Shown here piece by piece: positions 48,968 through 55,567 of a stretch of DNA of 64,000 bases. Each line of letters opens with the position of its first letter. Positions within the stretch are counted from its first letter, which is position 1. The notes below the pieces were generated by a model. The model saw only the letters and a list, made by a program, of their open reading frames with translations, was not told the DNA's origin and made no database searches. Origin of the DNA: a bacterium (lineage in GTDB: Bacteria > Vulcanimicrobiota > JABDET01); contig JAJYZB010000002.1 in assembly GCA_021800275.1 (NCBI GenBank), forward strand, positions 196,997 through 260,996. The letters run 5' to 3'. Both the position numbers and the translations under genes were made by a program.

Positions 48968-49360
48968 TCATGTATTAAGGAAAACTAAAAGTTCCTTTAC
49001 CTTTTCTTGAATCGTATCTCGAACCTCTCGCACATCTTCAAGGGAAAGGTTCTTCGGATCAGGGATATTCCATTCTATTCTGGTTTTTGTCCGCACAAAA
49101 GGACAGGTGTCCCCACACCCCATAGTAACGACACAATCATATTCGACGTCAGGGATTTCTTGAAGAGATTTTGGATGGTGGGTGGAAAGATCATACCCGA
49201 TCTCATGCATCACTTGAACTGCTTTGAGATTAAGATTTGCAGCAGGCAGAGAACCTGCGCTGAAAGTTTCGACTTTATTTCCCCAGTGAATGCGCGCAAA
49301 TCCTTCTGCCATCTGACTCCTGCCTGCATTCTCAATGCACACAAATAAAATTTTTTTCAT
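48968..49360 (-). CDS. arsC: Thioredoxin-coupled arsenate reductase ArsC
   Basis: This 130-aa low-molecular-weight phosphatase-like protein has the P-loop CIENAGRSQMAEGF with catalytic Cys8. The two further cysteines are in VTMGCGDTCPFV, as in the Staphylococcus/Bacillus-type ArsC that cycles disulfides with thioredoxin. It reduces arsenate to arsenite. It lies after arsR and a broken acr3 on the same strand, so arsenite export from this locus is lost. Confidence 0.92.
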   Translation of the reverse strand: MKKILFVCIENAGRSQMAEGFARIHWGNKVETFSAGSLPAANLNLKAVQVMHEIGYDLSTHHPKSLQEIPDVEYDCVVTMGCGDTCPFVRTKTRIEWNIPDPKNLSLEDVREVRDTIQEKVKELLVFLNT

Positions 49361-49382: not shown

Positions 49383-49727
49383 TCATCTGCAGATTAAATT
49401 TCGATCCGTGGATTTAAGTTTTTTTCTGTCTTCAAGAACAACTATTTCTTTTTCAAGCCACTTTGACAAAAATTTCAGCAGATCAGAGGCTTCTGAATTT
49501 TTTAAATCATTATTTAAATAGCAGTTGATCCATTTCCCATCCCTTTTATAATGAATGAGTTCTGCCTCTTCAAGAATCTTTAAATGTCGAGAAGCTGTGG
49601 ATTGACCAATTCCGAGAATTTCTTGAATTTCGCAGACACACAGCCCCTTTTTGTGCTGGAGCATTTTCAAGATGCGGATTCGATTCTCATCCGCCGCTGC
49701 CTTTAAAATTTTAACAGATTTTATCAT
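49383..49727 (-). CDS. arsR: ArsR/SmtB-family repressor
   Basis: The 114-aa winged-helix protein has NRIRILKMLQHKKGLCVCEI, with the paired cysteines CVC used to bind arsenite. The DNA helix QSTASRHLKILEEAELI and a C-terminal charged tail follow. It would repress the ars genes and release DNA on arsenite binding. It lies between the acr3 fragment and arsC, 22 bases before arsC. Confidence 0.92.
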   Translation of the reverse strand: MIKSVKILKAAADENRIRILKMLQHKKGLCVCEIQEILGIGQSTASRHLKILEEAELIHYKRDGKWINCYLNNDLKNSEASDLLKFLSKWLEKEIVVLEDRKKLKSTDRNLICR

Positions 49728-51259: not shown

Positions 51260-51333
51260 TCTCTTTGAAAGCAGCTTAAATTTTGACAGTTTTTTGACAG
51301 GGGTATGTTAAGCTGAAAAGGAGATGAAATTTG
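51231..51333 (+). repeat. Duplicated promoter-leader, copy 1
   Basis: This aligns without gaps to 54701-54803. The part 51281-51330 differs from its partner at only about three positions and includes GGTATGTTAAGCTG and the ribosome site AAAAGGAGATG. The promoter part is more diverged. Confidence 0.85.
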
Positions 51334-51888
51334 ATGGCGATCCTGCATGAAAAACGAAAATACACGTATGAGGACTACTGCAAACTCCCTTCTGATATTC
51401 GGGCAGAAGTTCTGGAGGGGGAACTTCTGATGTGCGCCTCTCCCAATACCAGACACCAAAGAATATCACGAGAGATTGAATTCACGCTCTCCCAGTGGGT
51501 AAAAGAAAAAGGGTTAGGGGAAGTTTTAGATGCCCCGATGGATGTGGTCTTATCCCCCTATACTGTCCTTCAGCCCGATATTTTGTATATATCTAAAGAA
51601 AGAGTTTCGATTATTACAGAACCCAATATCCAAGGGGCTCCTGATTTAGTGGTTGAGATTCTTTCTCCTGGAGATGAGAAAAGAGATACAGTTAAGAAAA
51701 AAGCGATTTACGAAAAGTTCGGAGTGAAAGAGTACTGGATCGTAGATCCAACTCAAGAAAGCATCACGCTTTTCTCTTTGGGTGAGAAAGGTTATAAGGA
51801 GAAAGGGGTTTATGAGAAAGGTCAGGTTTTAGAATCTGTCATTCTTCCTGGGTTTACTTTAAAATTAGACGAAGTGTTTAAGGTTTAG
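51334..51888 (+). CDS. Uma2-family (DUF820) restriction-endonuclease-fold protein
   Basis: The 184-aa protein has the family pattern YTYEDYCKLP, AEVLEGELLMCASPNTRHQ, then VLQPDILYIS, PDLVVEILSPGD and KKKAIYEKFGVKEYWIVDP. The PD-(D/E)XK-like residues are in QPDILY, VVEILSP and the downstream Lys. The biological role of Uma2 proteins is unknown; they spread in many copies in cyanobacteria and other phyla. ATG 51334 is preferred; a TTG three codons... at 51331 directly precedes it and is equally spaced from AAGGAG. Confidence 0.9.
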   Translation: MAILHEKRKYTYEDYCKLPSDIRAEVLEGELLMCASPNTRHQRISREIEFTLSQWVKEKGLGEVLDAPMDVVLSPYTVLQPDILYISKERVSIITEPNIQGAPDLVVEILSPGDEKRDTVKKKAIYEKFGVKEYWIVDPTQESITLFSLGEKGYKEKGVYEKGQVLESVILPGFTLKLDEVFKV

Positions 51889-51902: not shown

Positions 51903-52373
51903 TCATCCCTTCTCCCGATACTTTTCCAGAACCTGGCTGATCCCCTGGACCCTGACCCAGATCGGAAAGATAAAAAAAATCAGACCCAGAACCACAAGAC
52001 TTTCTCCTGCAAGAGGCAGAAAACGAAAAACAGATGAAATAAGAGAAGCTGAATGTCCGTGAAAAACCATCTGCGCCAGAGGAGCCCCTGTCAAAAACAA
52101 GATCAATCCTGCATTGAAAAAGTAAAAACTCAGCCAGGCTGAAAGCTCATATTTTCTTTTTTTGTCAGCCCTCGGAAAGATCCAGAATCCGATTCCGAAG
52201 ACAAACTGAAACACCCAGCCAATAAGGAGCAGCTCCATATGATCCTCGAGCAGGATCCCCTGGAATGGGATATATCCAATTCCTTTCCCCAAGAGCATAA
52301 AAGCTCCAAGAGTTGTTCCAGCTAAAAAATATAAAAGTGAAGTTTTTAAAAACCAGCAGCTTAATTTAGGCAT
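51903..52373 (-). CDS. Small haem-copper-oxidase-like membrane protein 1
   Basis: Four membrane helices hold the motif HMELLLIGWVFQFVFGIGFW followed by IFPR, recalling a segment of cbb3-type oxidase subunit I with its helix histidine. Only 156 aa long, so it is not a complete oxidase. It is a paralogue of the next gene upstream (shared W-F-x-K-x-x-x-x-Y start and H-x-x-x-I-G-W motif). It is the last of four co-directional genes with NnrS and hemerythrin; a role in haem, copper or nitric oxide handling is inferred. Confidence 0.7.
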   Translation of the reverse strand: MPKLSCWFLKTSLLYFLAGTTLGAFMLLGKGIGYIPFQGILLEDHMELLLIGWVFQFVFGIGFWIFPRADKKRKYELSAWLSFYFFNAGLILFLTGAPLAQMVFHGHSASLISSVFRFLPLAGESLVVLGLIFFIFPIWVRVQGISQVLEKYREKG

Positions 52374-52374
52374 T

Positions 52375-52812
52375 TTATCTTTCTCTAATCCTCCCCCAGA
52401 TCAAAAATACAAAAAGAATGGATCCTAACCAGAGAAATAAAGCGGAAAAAATCAGAAATAGATCCCAGACAGGGGCAGGATTTAAAGCCTGAAGAGGTTC
52501 TCCAAAAGCCCTTAAGCACAATCCCAAATTTAAAAAAATAAAAATAAACCAGCCTAAAATTTCAATCCCATTCAAGGCAGAAGAACGGTGAGATGAATCC
52601 TTTGCTTGAACTGAAGGACGGGGAAAAAGCCACCAAGATACTCCGATAATGGTCTGGGTGAGCCATCCAATGGTGAGAAAATGAATGTAAACCAGAGTAA
52701 AATCAGGAGCCAGATAAGAGTAATGAGGAAGAGAAAAAAAGAGATTCATTCCCAGTCCAAGGGCCAGATAAATCACTCCACTTTTAATGAACCATCGGGT
52801 TAAAGTTGGCAT
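52375..52812 (-). CDS. Small haem-copper-oxidase-like membrane protein 2
   Basis: The 145-aa, four-helix product has WFIKSGVIYLALGLGMNLFF and the motif HFLTIGWLTQTIIGVSWW followed by LFPRP, matching its neighbour. The shared histidine could be a haem or metal ligand. One base separates it from the following paralogue and 30 bases from nnrS, so it is in the same operon. Proteins of this kind are often annotated as cbb3 subunit I-like near nnrS. Confidence 0.7.
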   Translation of the reverse strand: MPTLTRWFIKSGVIYLALGLGMNLFFSLPHYSYLAPDFTLVYIHFLTIGWLTQTIIGVSWWLFPRPSVQAKDSSHRSSALNGIEILGWFIFIFLNLGLCLRAFGEPLQALNPAPVWDLFLIFSALFLWLGSILFVFLIWGRIRER

Positions 52813-52842
52813 CTCTGATCATCCTTAATTTTATCCTCGATA

Positions 52843-53922
52843 TTAAACTGCTTTTAATTTTGATCCAATTCCTGTTAAAATTGAAAAAACCATCTGGGCT
52901 AAAAATAAAAGGATGGCTGCAGCATTTCCAACCCCTCCCCACTGCTGGATCAGGCTCTGTCCTGTCAAATCCCCGATAACGCGAACAGCGAGTGAAGCTG
53001 CGAGCAAGATTAAATAAATATAATACTGATTTTGAAACTGAATGGGCAGCTCTAAAATCGCAGGGAAAATGATGCAGGCATGACCGAATATCATAGAAAA
53101 AACAAAACCTAAAAAAAGCGTATGTAGAGCAGCATCATAATGGAAGCCTGACAAGTGCGAAGAAAAAATCAAAAAACATAATCCTGAAATCCCAAGCCAG
53201 ACATACCCAGATAAAAGAGAAACTGCTGCAAAACGGGGGAGTCCAGGTTTTCGAATTGTTTTACGCGCAATATCAAATTGAAAAAGCCAGAATGAAAATA
53301 AAATCATGCCAACTCCTGCCAGAGCATTTCCAAGAGGATAAGCGTATTCGCTGAAAACAGCCCCTCCGAGAAATAAAAGGGATGCAGCCATAAAAATCAT
53401 GACTGCTGCTTTAGGAAGTTTCTGTAGCTGGCTGAGTTCCAGTCTTTCACCTGCAATGATAAAAATCAAGAATCCTGCCCAAAAAAGCAGAACCTGTGGG
53501 ACAGTTTGTCCGAAAAACCAGAATAGATTTCCTGTGAACCAGGACAAAGCCCCTGTCCCCATCACAAAAGCTGAAAAGGAGGGCTGAATTCGGATAAGAA
53601 AAAGATTGATGATAAAAAAGACTAAACTCCCTATTAAAATAGAGATAACTCCTGTGGGATAACTTACCCCTGACAAAAGAACAATCCCTCCGACCCCGGT
53701 TAAAATCGGTGAAAGAAATCCCCAGGGTCTGCGAAGGGCAACCGCTCTTTCAAGCCCAAGAACAGTACCCAAAAATCCTGAAATCATTAAAGGACCGTGA
53801 ACCAGGGACAGGTTCGGATTCCAGGGGGGGAATGGGATAGGAATAGAAAGCCTCAAAAACCCCGCCCAAATCCCCCCCAGCAAACTTAAAATTCCTAGTC
53901 CCAGGAGTGGGAACTTTTTCAT
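52843..53922 (-). CDS. nnrS: NnrS-family haem/copper membrane protein
   Basis: The 359-aa protein has about twelve hydrophobic helices and NnrS features: LVHGPLMISGFLGTVLGLER, FIIAGERLELSQL, and the late pair ALHTLFLGFVFSMIFGHACI with conserved histidines. NnrS relieves nitrosative stress by protecting cellular iron pools from nitric oxide. It overlaps the hemerythrin gene by four bases. The gene is predicted to be under the FNR-type box at 54670-54683. Confidence 0.9.
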   Translation of the reverse strand: MKKFPLLGLGILSLLGGIWAGFLRLSIPIPFPPWNPNLSLVHGPLMISGFLGTVLGLERAVALRRPWGFLSPILTGVGGIVLLSGVSYPTGVISILIGSLVFFIINLFLIRIQPSFSAFVMGTGALSWFTGNLFWFFGQTVPQVLLFWAGFLIFIIAGERLELSQLQKLPKAAVMIFMAASLLFLGGAVFSEYAYPLGNALAGVGMILFSFWLFQFDIARKTIRKPGLPRFAAVSLLSGYVWLGISGLCFLIFSSHLSGFHYDAALHTLFLGFVFSMIFGHACIIFPAILELPIQFQNQYYIYLILLAASLAVRVIGDLTGQSLIQQWGGVGNAAAILLFLAQMVFSILTGIGSKLKAV

Positions 53923-54608
53923 TTTCTGCTGATTTTAACCCTCCAATCTTCAGGTCCTTTTTCTAGATACTCCCACTCAAACATTCCTTCCCGTTCATGC
54001 AGAAATGAGTAGTAAAGTGGTTTTGGATCATGATCGTTCACAAGAATAAAAGCTCTACCTTCAGGTGTTTCATCAAAAGTTTTAAAAATCAGTGGATGCC
54101 TTTGAGGCGGCGGCATATTTCGAACATCCAGAATCTGTTCCTGACATTTCGGATCTGAGCAGCCTTTAGAAACCTCAAAACTTTTATGCATCTGATGCAG
54201 CAGACCTTCCTGTTCTTTTTCTGAAAGATAGCTGCGGAGCAGAGGGAAATAAACTTCTTCCTCTTTTTGGGTGTGAAGATTCAAAATCAAAAGAAGGTCC
54301 TGAGCTTTCTTCAGAACCTCATCCTTACTGGATCCAGATTCAGTGATTCCAGAAATAATCTGCTTCACAAACTGATGTTCTAAAGTCATAGTGGCTGTTG
54401 GCTTCCCATATTTAGTTATCAGCCGATCCACTTCAGGATAAACAGATTTTTCCTCTGCTTCAATATGGGGAATCAGCTCTTTTTTAAAAAAATCAACCAA
54501 ACCTTCTGGAGACTTCCCTCCCCTTTCTTCCAACTCTTTTGTTAAACATTCTACTCTTGCAAGCAGTTCTTTATGATGCTCCTGCAATGTATTCATTAAT
54601 TTTCCCAT
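53919..54608 (-). CDS. Hemerythrin-like domain plus DUF2249 protein
   Basis: Residues about 1-140 are a hemerythrin-like four-helix bundle with di-iron ligands in LQEHHKELL, HIEAEEKSVYPEV, MTLEHQFVKQI and LNLHTQKEEEVYFPLL. Residues about 155-228 form a DUF2249 domain (LDVRNMPPPQRHPLIFKTFD, RAFILVNDHDPKPLYYSF). This fusion is linked to repair or sensing under nitric oxide. The ribosome site AGGAGG is well placed and an FNR-type box lies 62 bases upstream. It is the first gene of the four-gene operon. Confidence 0.9.
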   Translation of the reverse strand: MGKLMNTLQEHHKELLARVECLTKELEERGGKSPEGLVDFFKKELIPHIEAEEKSVYPEVDRLITKYGKPTATMTLEHQFVKQIISGITESGSSKDEVLKKAQDLLLILNLHTQKEEEVYFPLLRSYLSEKEQEGLLHQMHKSFEVSKGCSDPKCQEQILDVRNMPPPQRHPLIFKTFDETPEGRAFILVNDHDPKPLYYSFLHEREGMFEWEYLEKGPEDWRVKISRK

Positions 54609-54641
54609 GATTATTCCTCCTTTTCATTCTGGTACAGAAAT

Positions 54642-54683
54642 AGCATACTCCCCTTAAGAGGAATTGTCTTTGATCTAGATCAA
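54642..54683 (-). promoter_or_regulatory. FNR/DNR-type box with matching -10 (class II activated promoter)
   Basis: TTGATCTAGATCAA (54670-54683) is a perfect TTGAT-N4-ATCAA palindrome. TATGCT on the minus strand (54642-54647) would be the -10, giving a start near 54635. The box centre (54676.5) is then at about -41.5, the standard class II activator position. Confidence 0.8.
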
Positions 54684-54700
54684 GTAAAAAAATATATTTC

Positions 54701-54803
54701 TTGTACTTTCGTGTGTTTTATGGTACAATCAAGGCGTACTGCGGCGAAATTTTTGACAGTTTTTTGGCAAAGGTATGTTAAGCTGAAAAGGAGATGAAAT
54801 CTG
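54701..54803 (+). repeat. Duplicated promoter-leader, copy 2 (orphan)
   Basis: Gap-free counterpart of 51231-51333, including -35 TTGTAC, -10 TACAAT (54724-54729) and AAAAGGAGATG. No Uma2 gene follows; only a short frame does. Confidence 0.85.
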
Positions 54804-54805
54804 AT

Positions 54806-54910
54806 ATGTCAATCCTTGGCTTTCAAACAAAAGAGCGCCGCTCGGTAGTCCACCATTCTCTCCAACTGCTGAAGCTGTCCTTTCTTGCGTTCTTATTTCT
54901 CTGGCACTGA
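54806..54910 (+). CDS. Possible 34-aa leftover frame behind the duplicated leader
   Basis: An ATG correctly placed after the copied ribosome site starts MSILGFQTKERR and runs 34 codons, overlapping the convergent Crp-type gene. The start MSIL resembles the MAIL of the Uma2 protein, so this may be the stump of a second Uma2 gene. Expression is plausible but function is doubtful. Confidence 0.35.
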   Translation: MSILGFQTKERRSVVHHSLQLLKLSFLAFLFLWH

Positions 54911-55567
54911 AAAGAGTTTTGAAGATTTTTTAATCTGGATACTCCCCCTTTTTGCTGCAATCCATCCATTTTTCTGCCAGCGATTCAAGATTCTGCTGAC
55001 TGTATAAAGTGTAGTGCCTGTTAATTCAGCCAGATCTTGACGAGACAGAAGGAGTTCACTGGTTTTCATTTTTTTTGAAAGTCGGGAGAGAGCGCGGGAA
55101 ACTCTTACCTCAACTCTTTCTGTGGCTAACTCTAAATATCTCTGTCTGAGTTCAGACAGTTCATCTCCTAAAATCTGCAGGGCATTCAAGGCGATTTTTG
55201 GAGAAAGATCCATCAATTTCCAAATCGTCTCTCTGTCCCACGTAAAAACTTTTGAAACAGCAGCCGTGGTTCCTGATGCAGGATAAGCGATTCCCCCAAA
55301 AAGAGGAACACACCCAAACAATTCTCCAGGACCAGCATACCGAACCACAATCTGGCTGCCGTCAGGACTTAACTGGGTGACTTTGACCTTTCCTTCAATT
55401 AAGAAAAATAATTGATCCGCTTTTTCGCCCTGACGAAAAAAAACTTCTCCTTTTTCTTTCTGCGCCATCCCGGCTGCTTCCACAATTCGAGCCAGTGCAG
55501 AAGCATCAAGACCTTTAAAAAGTCCACATTTTTTTAAAAATGCAACTTTCTCCTCATAAATCCGCAA
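54893..55567 (-). CDS. Crp/Fnr-family transcription regulator
   Basis: The 224-aa product has a cyclic-nucleotide-type sensor barrel (EVFFRQGEKADQLFFLIEGK, VVRYAGPGELFGCVPLFGG). A dimer helix and a C-terminal winged helix follow, with SRQDLAELTGTTLYTVSRIL as the DNA-reading part. The VSR residues match those that read TTGAT half-sites, but no N-terminal cysteine cluster for Fe-S is present, so it resembles DNR/NnrR-type and not FNR. It is beside the hemerythrin-NnrS operon with a TTGAT box and is the likely regulator (inference). It follows minE by 50 bases. Confidence 0.9.
   Translation of the reverse strand: MRIYEEKVAFLKKCGLFKGLDASALARIVEAAGMAQKEKGEVFFRQGEKADQLFFLIEGKVKVTQLSPDGSQIVVRYAGPGELFGCVPLFGGIAYPASGTTAAVSKVFTWDRETIWKLMDLSPKIALNALQILGDELSELRQRYLELATERVEVRVSRALSRLSKKMKTSELLLSRQDLAELTGTTLYTVSRILNRWQKNGWIAAKRGSIQIKKSSKLFSVPEK

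Follow-up and report, generated by a model that had tools for sequence, protein, structure and literature searches.

A small operon of hemerythrin-DUF2249 and heme-copper-oxidase-like membrane proteins behind a conserved TTGAT-type box, with a likely link to nitric oxide

Introduction

A connection with nitric oxide (NO) has been drawn for twenty years for DUF2249, NnrS and the genes that accompany them, none of which has a known function. Among regulators of the Crp/Fnr family, Rodionov et al. reported that residues 180 and 181 follow the binding motif, that NnrR has the motif TTGCG-N4-CGCAA and that the NnrR and NsrR regulons are predicted to include DUF2249 (COG4309; PMC1274295). In Bradyrhizobium several strongly NnrR-dependent genes fit a TTGCG-type motif; the site table of that study also contains TTGAT-type sites, and its authors suggest that NnrR may share the FixK2 box (PMC6710368). 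In Haloferax, DUF2249 genes are induced under denitrification (PMC11218638). We found no literature on DUF2249 together with NnrS and hemerythrin.

The operon described here is a compact form of this gene set outside the proteobacteria. It lies in a stretch of 64 kb, the whole of which is called the window below. A sequence-only reading of this DNA had described an NO-responsive unit of hemerythrin-DUF2249, NnrS and two small oxidase-like proteins behind a perfect FNR/DNR box, which would be read by an adjacent Crp/Fnr protein.

Results

Four tightly packed genes on the minus strand run from 54608 to 51903, with a 4-nt overlap between the hemerythrin-DUF2249 gene and the gene of a 359-aa membrane protein and subsequent gaps of 30 nt and 1 nt, so that the tight linkage noted earlier is borne out. 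The first gene (53919-54608, minus strand), preceded by the Shine-Dalgarno sequence GGAGG (54616-54620, minus strand) that is kept in a genome of the sister genus, encodes a fusion of 229 aa in which both a hemerythrin HHE domain (PF01814, 2.1e-12) and DUF2249 (PF10006, 4.4e-28) were matched, as the sequence-only reading had proposed. The RIC/YtfE models of NCBIfam gave this protein only 22.9 and 17.3 bits, against cut-offs of 204.7 and 254.

The second gene (52843-53922, minus strand) encodes the 359-aa protein, whose family is absent from the Pfam and NCBIfam models; for five family members no Pfam match was obtained at E values up to 10. Its previous label, NnrS, was rejected by Pfam, BLAST and hhalign, since the protein matches neither the Pfam NnrS model nor real NnrS proteins. 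The PF05940 search gave no match in its own or the sister genome, nor did it in the control genomes, and hhalign of the family against NnrS of rhizobia and Azospirillum returned a probability of 1.4%. The predicted structure (pLDDT 95) had NOR, ba3 and cbb3 chains as its top Foldseek matches, with a probability of 1.00, a TM score of 0.73 to 3mk7 and E values of 0.002-0.03 (best 0.0024), NOR and CcoN being the best. The protein is predicted from this model to adopt the 12-helix fold of heme-copper-oxidase subunit I. Three histidines only are invariant in 39 homologues (H41, H266 and H280, numbered as in the homologue alignment), compared with six His ligands for the low-spin heme, the high-spin heme and CuB. 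The motifs LVHGPLM and ALHTLFLGF may correspond to the two low-spin heme His sites of CcoN, a resemblance judged by motif and not by superposition, and the remaining ligands are missing. In a scan of public genomes at least 454 stretches were found to encode members of this family, in Nitrospira, Chloroflexi, Verrucomicrobia, Nitrospinota and others.

The last two genes encode the small 4-helix proteins A (52375-52812, minus strand) and B (51903-52373, minus strand). Their profile aligns with CcoN 303-464, i.e. the last four helices (9g6b_A, 3e-5; 3mk7_A, 5e-4), and this similarity to CcoN helices 9-12 agrees with the earlier description of both as oxidase-like. For protein B a COX1 match of 6e-7 stayed below the cut-off, and oxidase and NOR chains lead the weak matches of its predicted structure. 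In the matching region CcoN carries the motif HVHAGALGW. Protein A keeps the second His of the HxH and protein B the first; in all pairs examined the motif reads [YFI]xH in the first protein and Hx[EDH] in the other, which divides the two histidines between them, and a lone small protein at another locus (L090) carries both. A gene duplication after which the two copies shared the work would explain this pattern, and the interface of the two proteins may hold one heme. The split HxH motif is a concrete hint to the role of the membrane part.

Upstream of the first gene we confirmed the perfect palindrome TTGATCTAGATCAA (54670-54683, no strand, centre at 54676.5), followed by the -10-like hexamer TATGCT (54642-54647, minus strand, read as the complement). 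With TATGCT at -12 to -7 the predicted +1 is 54635, and the box centre, read directly, falls at -41.5, the position given in the sequence-only reading. TATGCT matches TATAAT at 4 of 6 bases only, and an equally good hexamer is present in about 9% of 3-position slots taken from nearby intergenic DNA.

Statements about a genome-wide regulon rest on pattern searches. TTGATCTAGATCAA is the sole perfect TTGATN4ATCAA in the window. The genome of 2.46 Mb has 10 such sites, and 19 of the wider form TTGAYN4RTCAA; the operon box is the only one of either set outside long open reading frames, 18 of the 19 being inside. The further TTGAT-N4-ATCAA sites for which the sequence-only reading had proposed to look thus amount to nine perfect ones, all of them within long reading frames. 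The operon box thus stands alone, boxes of this kind form no regulon here, and the several intergenic TTGAYN4RTCAA sites by which a DNR/FNR regulon would be recognized are not found in this genome. Membership of the box in an FNR/DNR regulon was rejected on two grounds, as there is neither a second intergenic site nor a regulator with such a reading head.

The palindrome could also be a chance match and no binding site, with a promoter that is ordinary or of another kind. About one intergenic site among 10-19 is what random expectation predicts, so the count alone is no proof of function, and TATGCT is a weak -10; on the other side, at genome density a gap of 283 bp such as this one would contain a perfect site with a probability of about 0.001. 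What speaks against this explanation is conservation, which we regard as better evidence for the box than the site count. In the sister-genus genome 13 of the 14 box bases are retained along with the operon, the -10 hexamer and the 22-nt spacing, and the membrane proteins of the two genomes are 84-85% identical. The sister box is TTGTTCTAGATCAA, with TATGCT 22 nt away as in the window, and both the block CTTGATCTAGAACAAAGACAA and TATGCT recur there with their distance unchanged, whereas the stretch between them is less conserved. Moreover, the homology ends exactly at the upstream edge of the box and the DNA beyond is unrelated, comprising a DUF488 gene and a NAD-binding flavin-reductase-like gene in the sister and a fragment of a Uma2 gene leader in the window. 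Because the upstream contents differ and the homology stops at the box edge, rearrangement has reached the box yet spared it. The left half of the sister's box doubles as the end of the inserted reductase gene, with its final codons and its stop, which would suit a chance match and make coding a possible cause of the conservation. However, the reductase copy elsewhere in the window's genome has a different end; therefore the box probably supplied the stop and not the reverse.

Box-like sites that precede genes of the 359-aa family in other phyla also argue against chance. The 80 database loci of this family contain 13 TTGAYN4RTCAA sites; 4 of these are no more than about 450 bp upstream of the operon, compared with about 0.5 expected (Poisson about 0.002, our own arithmetic), and TTGAY-type boxes stand directly before it in four of the loci. 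All four TTGCGN4CGCAA sites in these loci are intergenic, in two loci directly before the operon, and control patterns gave 0-2 intergenic sites. TTGA-type boxes occur near the same genes in two relatives from the phylum (G028 and G032), and DNR-like heads (ETLSR) were found in G028 and G016. The family occurs under both kinds of box, TTGA-type and TTGCG. Taken together, we consider a chance palindrome unlikely.

Several observations concern the surrounding DNA. The DUF488 and flavin-reductase-like genes (L025 10359-11446; L173 1486-2563) form a relocated pair, which in the sister is situated in the gap between regulator and operon and which the window's genome carries on a different contig. 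A direct repeat of 65 nt with 88% identity is located at 54741-54805 and 51271-51335 of the window; the latter copy is the leader of a Uma2 (DUF820) gene (51331-51888), and the former stands solo between regulator and operon, with no Uma2 gene. Four copies of the leader core are present in the window's genome and none in the sister. A Uma2 frame follows three of them, one of these being split into two frames. Further away, an ArsR-like regulator gene (49383-49727) adjoins one for an arsenate-reductase-like phosphatase (48968-49360), as judged by translation.

The adjacent regulator gene (54893-55567, minus strand) is kept near the operon in the sister. It encodes a Crp/Fnr protein with a single Cys in its N-terminal region and no FNR-type set of Fe-S cysteines, in agreement with the earlier description. 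In a plasmid collection it is 36-44% identical to rhizobial NnrR-like proteins; its closest relatives there are Azospirillum regulators that have DUF2249 and NnrS genes as neighbours and rhizobial ones that adjoin nirK, NnrS and DUF2249, joined by NnrU in Rhizobium. The recognition helix of FNR is LTVETISR. Here it reads TGTTLYTVSR, with TGTTLHTVSR in the sister and in rhizobia and, among homologues, TLYTVSR in Chloroflexi and TLFTVSR in Armatimonadota. Based on the rhizobial similarity, the neighbours and the TLHTVSR-like helix, we assign the regulator to the NnrR type. DNR/FNR regulators combine Glu181 with Ser184/Arg185, and the adjacent protein has Tyr181 (His in the sister) in place of this Glu; both its helix and its closest relatives rule it out as a DNR. 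The NnrR-type gene of the sister (L136) is an open frame of 239 codons whose first part has no ATG, GTG or TTG, and it may have an unusual start codon or be a decaying gene.

A regulator of this type would be expected at TTGCG boxes. A Chloroflexi genome has the gene of a related regulator immediately in front of its copy of the membrane-protein gene and encodes NirK downstream of it; two perfect TTGCG boxes are found there, one before the membrane-protein gene and one before nirK. In contrast, TTGCG-N4-CGCAA, the motif of an NnrR regulon, is absent from both the window's genome and the sister genome, and near the operon there is no TTGCG box even with up to two mismatches. The window's genome encodes five Crp/Fnr proteins with a helix-turn-helix, of which, besides the adjacent one, three are CRP-like (Arg180) and one has EPETILR; no FNR/DNR/FixK reading helix was found among the Crp/Fnr regulators of either genome. 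With neither such a head nor a TTGCG box, regulator and box are mismatched and the box has more than one candidate reader. The claim that an FNR/DNR box is read by the adjacent protein thus fails in its original form, given the NnrR-type helix, the missing regulon and the missing heads. Nevertheless, the adjacent NnrR-type protein is most likely the reader, with a changed site preference, because both species keep its gene close to the operon and because the altered half-site TTGTT of the sister recurs before the NnrR-dependent nirK of Bradyrhizobium.

Alternatively, the operon may be NO-related and its box read by another Crp/Fnr protein, G000:C28:142936. The helix of this protein, CEPETILR, has P180, E181 and R185 as in DNR and some HcpR proteins, and is kept identically in the sister. 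It is the only one of the five to combine a non-Arg residue 180 with Glu181, a pattern reported for TTGA-type sites (PMC1274295). However, it has Leu184 where FNR and DNR have Ser, its gene is far from the operon and adjoins a nitronate-monooxygenase-like gene (L014 1336-2109), and it would have one target, as no other intergenic TTGAY box exists. We hold this to be improbable and keep the adjacent protein as the favoured reader. For a binding comparison we propose wild-type TTGATCTAGATCAA, TTGCGCTAGCGCAA and a scrambled site.

Gene neighbourhoods were examined for the link to NO. Among 85 loci of the 359-aa family, 17 have a hemerythrin-DUF2249 relative and 12 have relatives of the small proteins. 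In a set of 104 scanned immediate neighbours, into which the Chloroflexi NirK was put by hand, an Fe-S assembly protein is commonest (9) and cupin ranks second (7), with two occurrences each of copper nitrite reductase, DUF2249, hemerythrin and SCO1. The genes that accompany the 359-aa family in other phyla thus include NirK, which adjoins it, and those for hemerythrin, DUF2249 and Fe-S assembly. The association with NO and denitrification proposed in the sequence-only reading therefore stands on the DUF2249 regulons, the NirK neighbours and the relatives of the regulator, and no longer on NnrS and the FNR/DNR box. On this basis a link of the operon to NO is likely.

The window's genome has one full enzyme of the COX1 family, an aa3-type oxidase, and therefore no NorB-type reductase. 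No NirK was found above the model cut-off, the matches being open frames of 163-175 aa far below it, and the molybdopterin proteins are PhsA/Qrc-like, so that nitrate reductase and NirK were both rejected. No NO source was identified in the searches for COX1-family, NirK and molybdopterin proteins. With no NorB-type reductase, no NirK and PhsA/Qrc-like molybdopterin enzymes, the operon more likely protects against NO of outside origin than takes part in respiration. Least probable is that the unit responds to oxygen shortage or to how reduced the respiratory chain is, with the membrane proteins as oxygen or heme modules and hemerythrin as an oxygen store: TTGAT-N4-ATCAA is also the oxygen box of FNR/FixK (PMC6710368), hemerythrins bind oxygen and the genome encodes the aa3 oxidase, but it has no FNR-type Fe-S regulator or FixK-type head, and denitrification clusters contain relatives of both the regulator and the genes.

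In the same genome (L166 4608-12935; L167 2196-5533) an MtrB/PioB-type outer-membrane porin gene adjoins a Qrc-like cytochrome/molybdopterin/Fe-S/NrfD cluster, and contig C33 holds a second molybdopterin/Fe-S copy. Porin and cluster could possibly serve extracellular electron transfer.

Discussion

We propose that these genes form a small NO-protection operon, in which an NO-sensing Crp/Fnr activator at the -41.5 box controls the hemerythrin-DUF2249 protein and a heme-binding membrane trio, and put the probability of this reading at about 0.5. The activator would bind the box and recruit RNA polymerase in a class II manner; we infer that it is the neighbouring NnrR-type protein, with its changed site preference, acting on sensing NO. 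The hemerythrin-DUF2249 protein could bind NO in the cytoplasm or repair damaged iron centres. The three membrane proteins, predicted to have the heme-copper-oxidase fold with most catalytic ligands absent, would bind heme and handle NO at the membrane by scavenging or sensing, and the NO itself may come from neighbouring organisms. This proposal is weakened because the NnrR helix elsewhere pairs with TTGCG-N4-CGCAA, which both genomes lack, because the genome has no other intergenic box of this kind and because the genome searches made found no NO source.

A bolder version, which we regard as doubtful, is that the widespread, unmodelled branch of the heme-copper fold and the two quarter-size CcoN-like proteins sharing one HxH constitute a minimal NO-handling membrane complex in bacteria that have no NO reductase, and that in this genus the NnrR-type regulator switched from TTGCG to TTGAT with its helix kept. 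Overall, the operon is ordinary biology with an unusual mismatch of regulator and box.

Compared with the NnrR regulon of alpha-proteobacteria (nirK, nor, nnrS, nnrU, COG4309), the regulator helix, a DUF2249 protein and a heme-copper-like membrane protein are likewise close together, but the box is TTGAT-type and not TTGCG, no nir or nor genes are beside it and the sequence of the membrane protein is not that of an NnrS. With class II promoters of DNR/FNR (TTGATN4ATCAA at -41.5) the operon shares the sequence and position of the box; it differs from them in that no DNR/FNR-type head was found in the genome and there are no further intergenic boxes. Similar to NnrS (PF05940), the 359-aa family has about 12 membrane helices, invariant histidines and an NO-cluster context, whereas a significant sequence match is lacking and its motifs are LERAVAL, ERLEL and LHxxFLGFxxSMxxxH. 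The predicted fold is that of CcoN (cbb3 oxidase subunit I) and NorB, yet the proteins here have 359, 145 and 156 aa instead of about 470, most catalytic ligands are absent and the HxH is split over two proteins. Finally, a hemerythrin domain in an NO context is shared with the di-iron repair proteins RIC/YtfE/DnrN; here the model scores are below the cut-off and the hemerythrin is fused to DUF2249.
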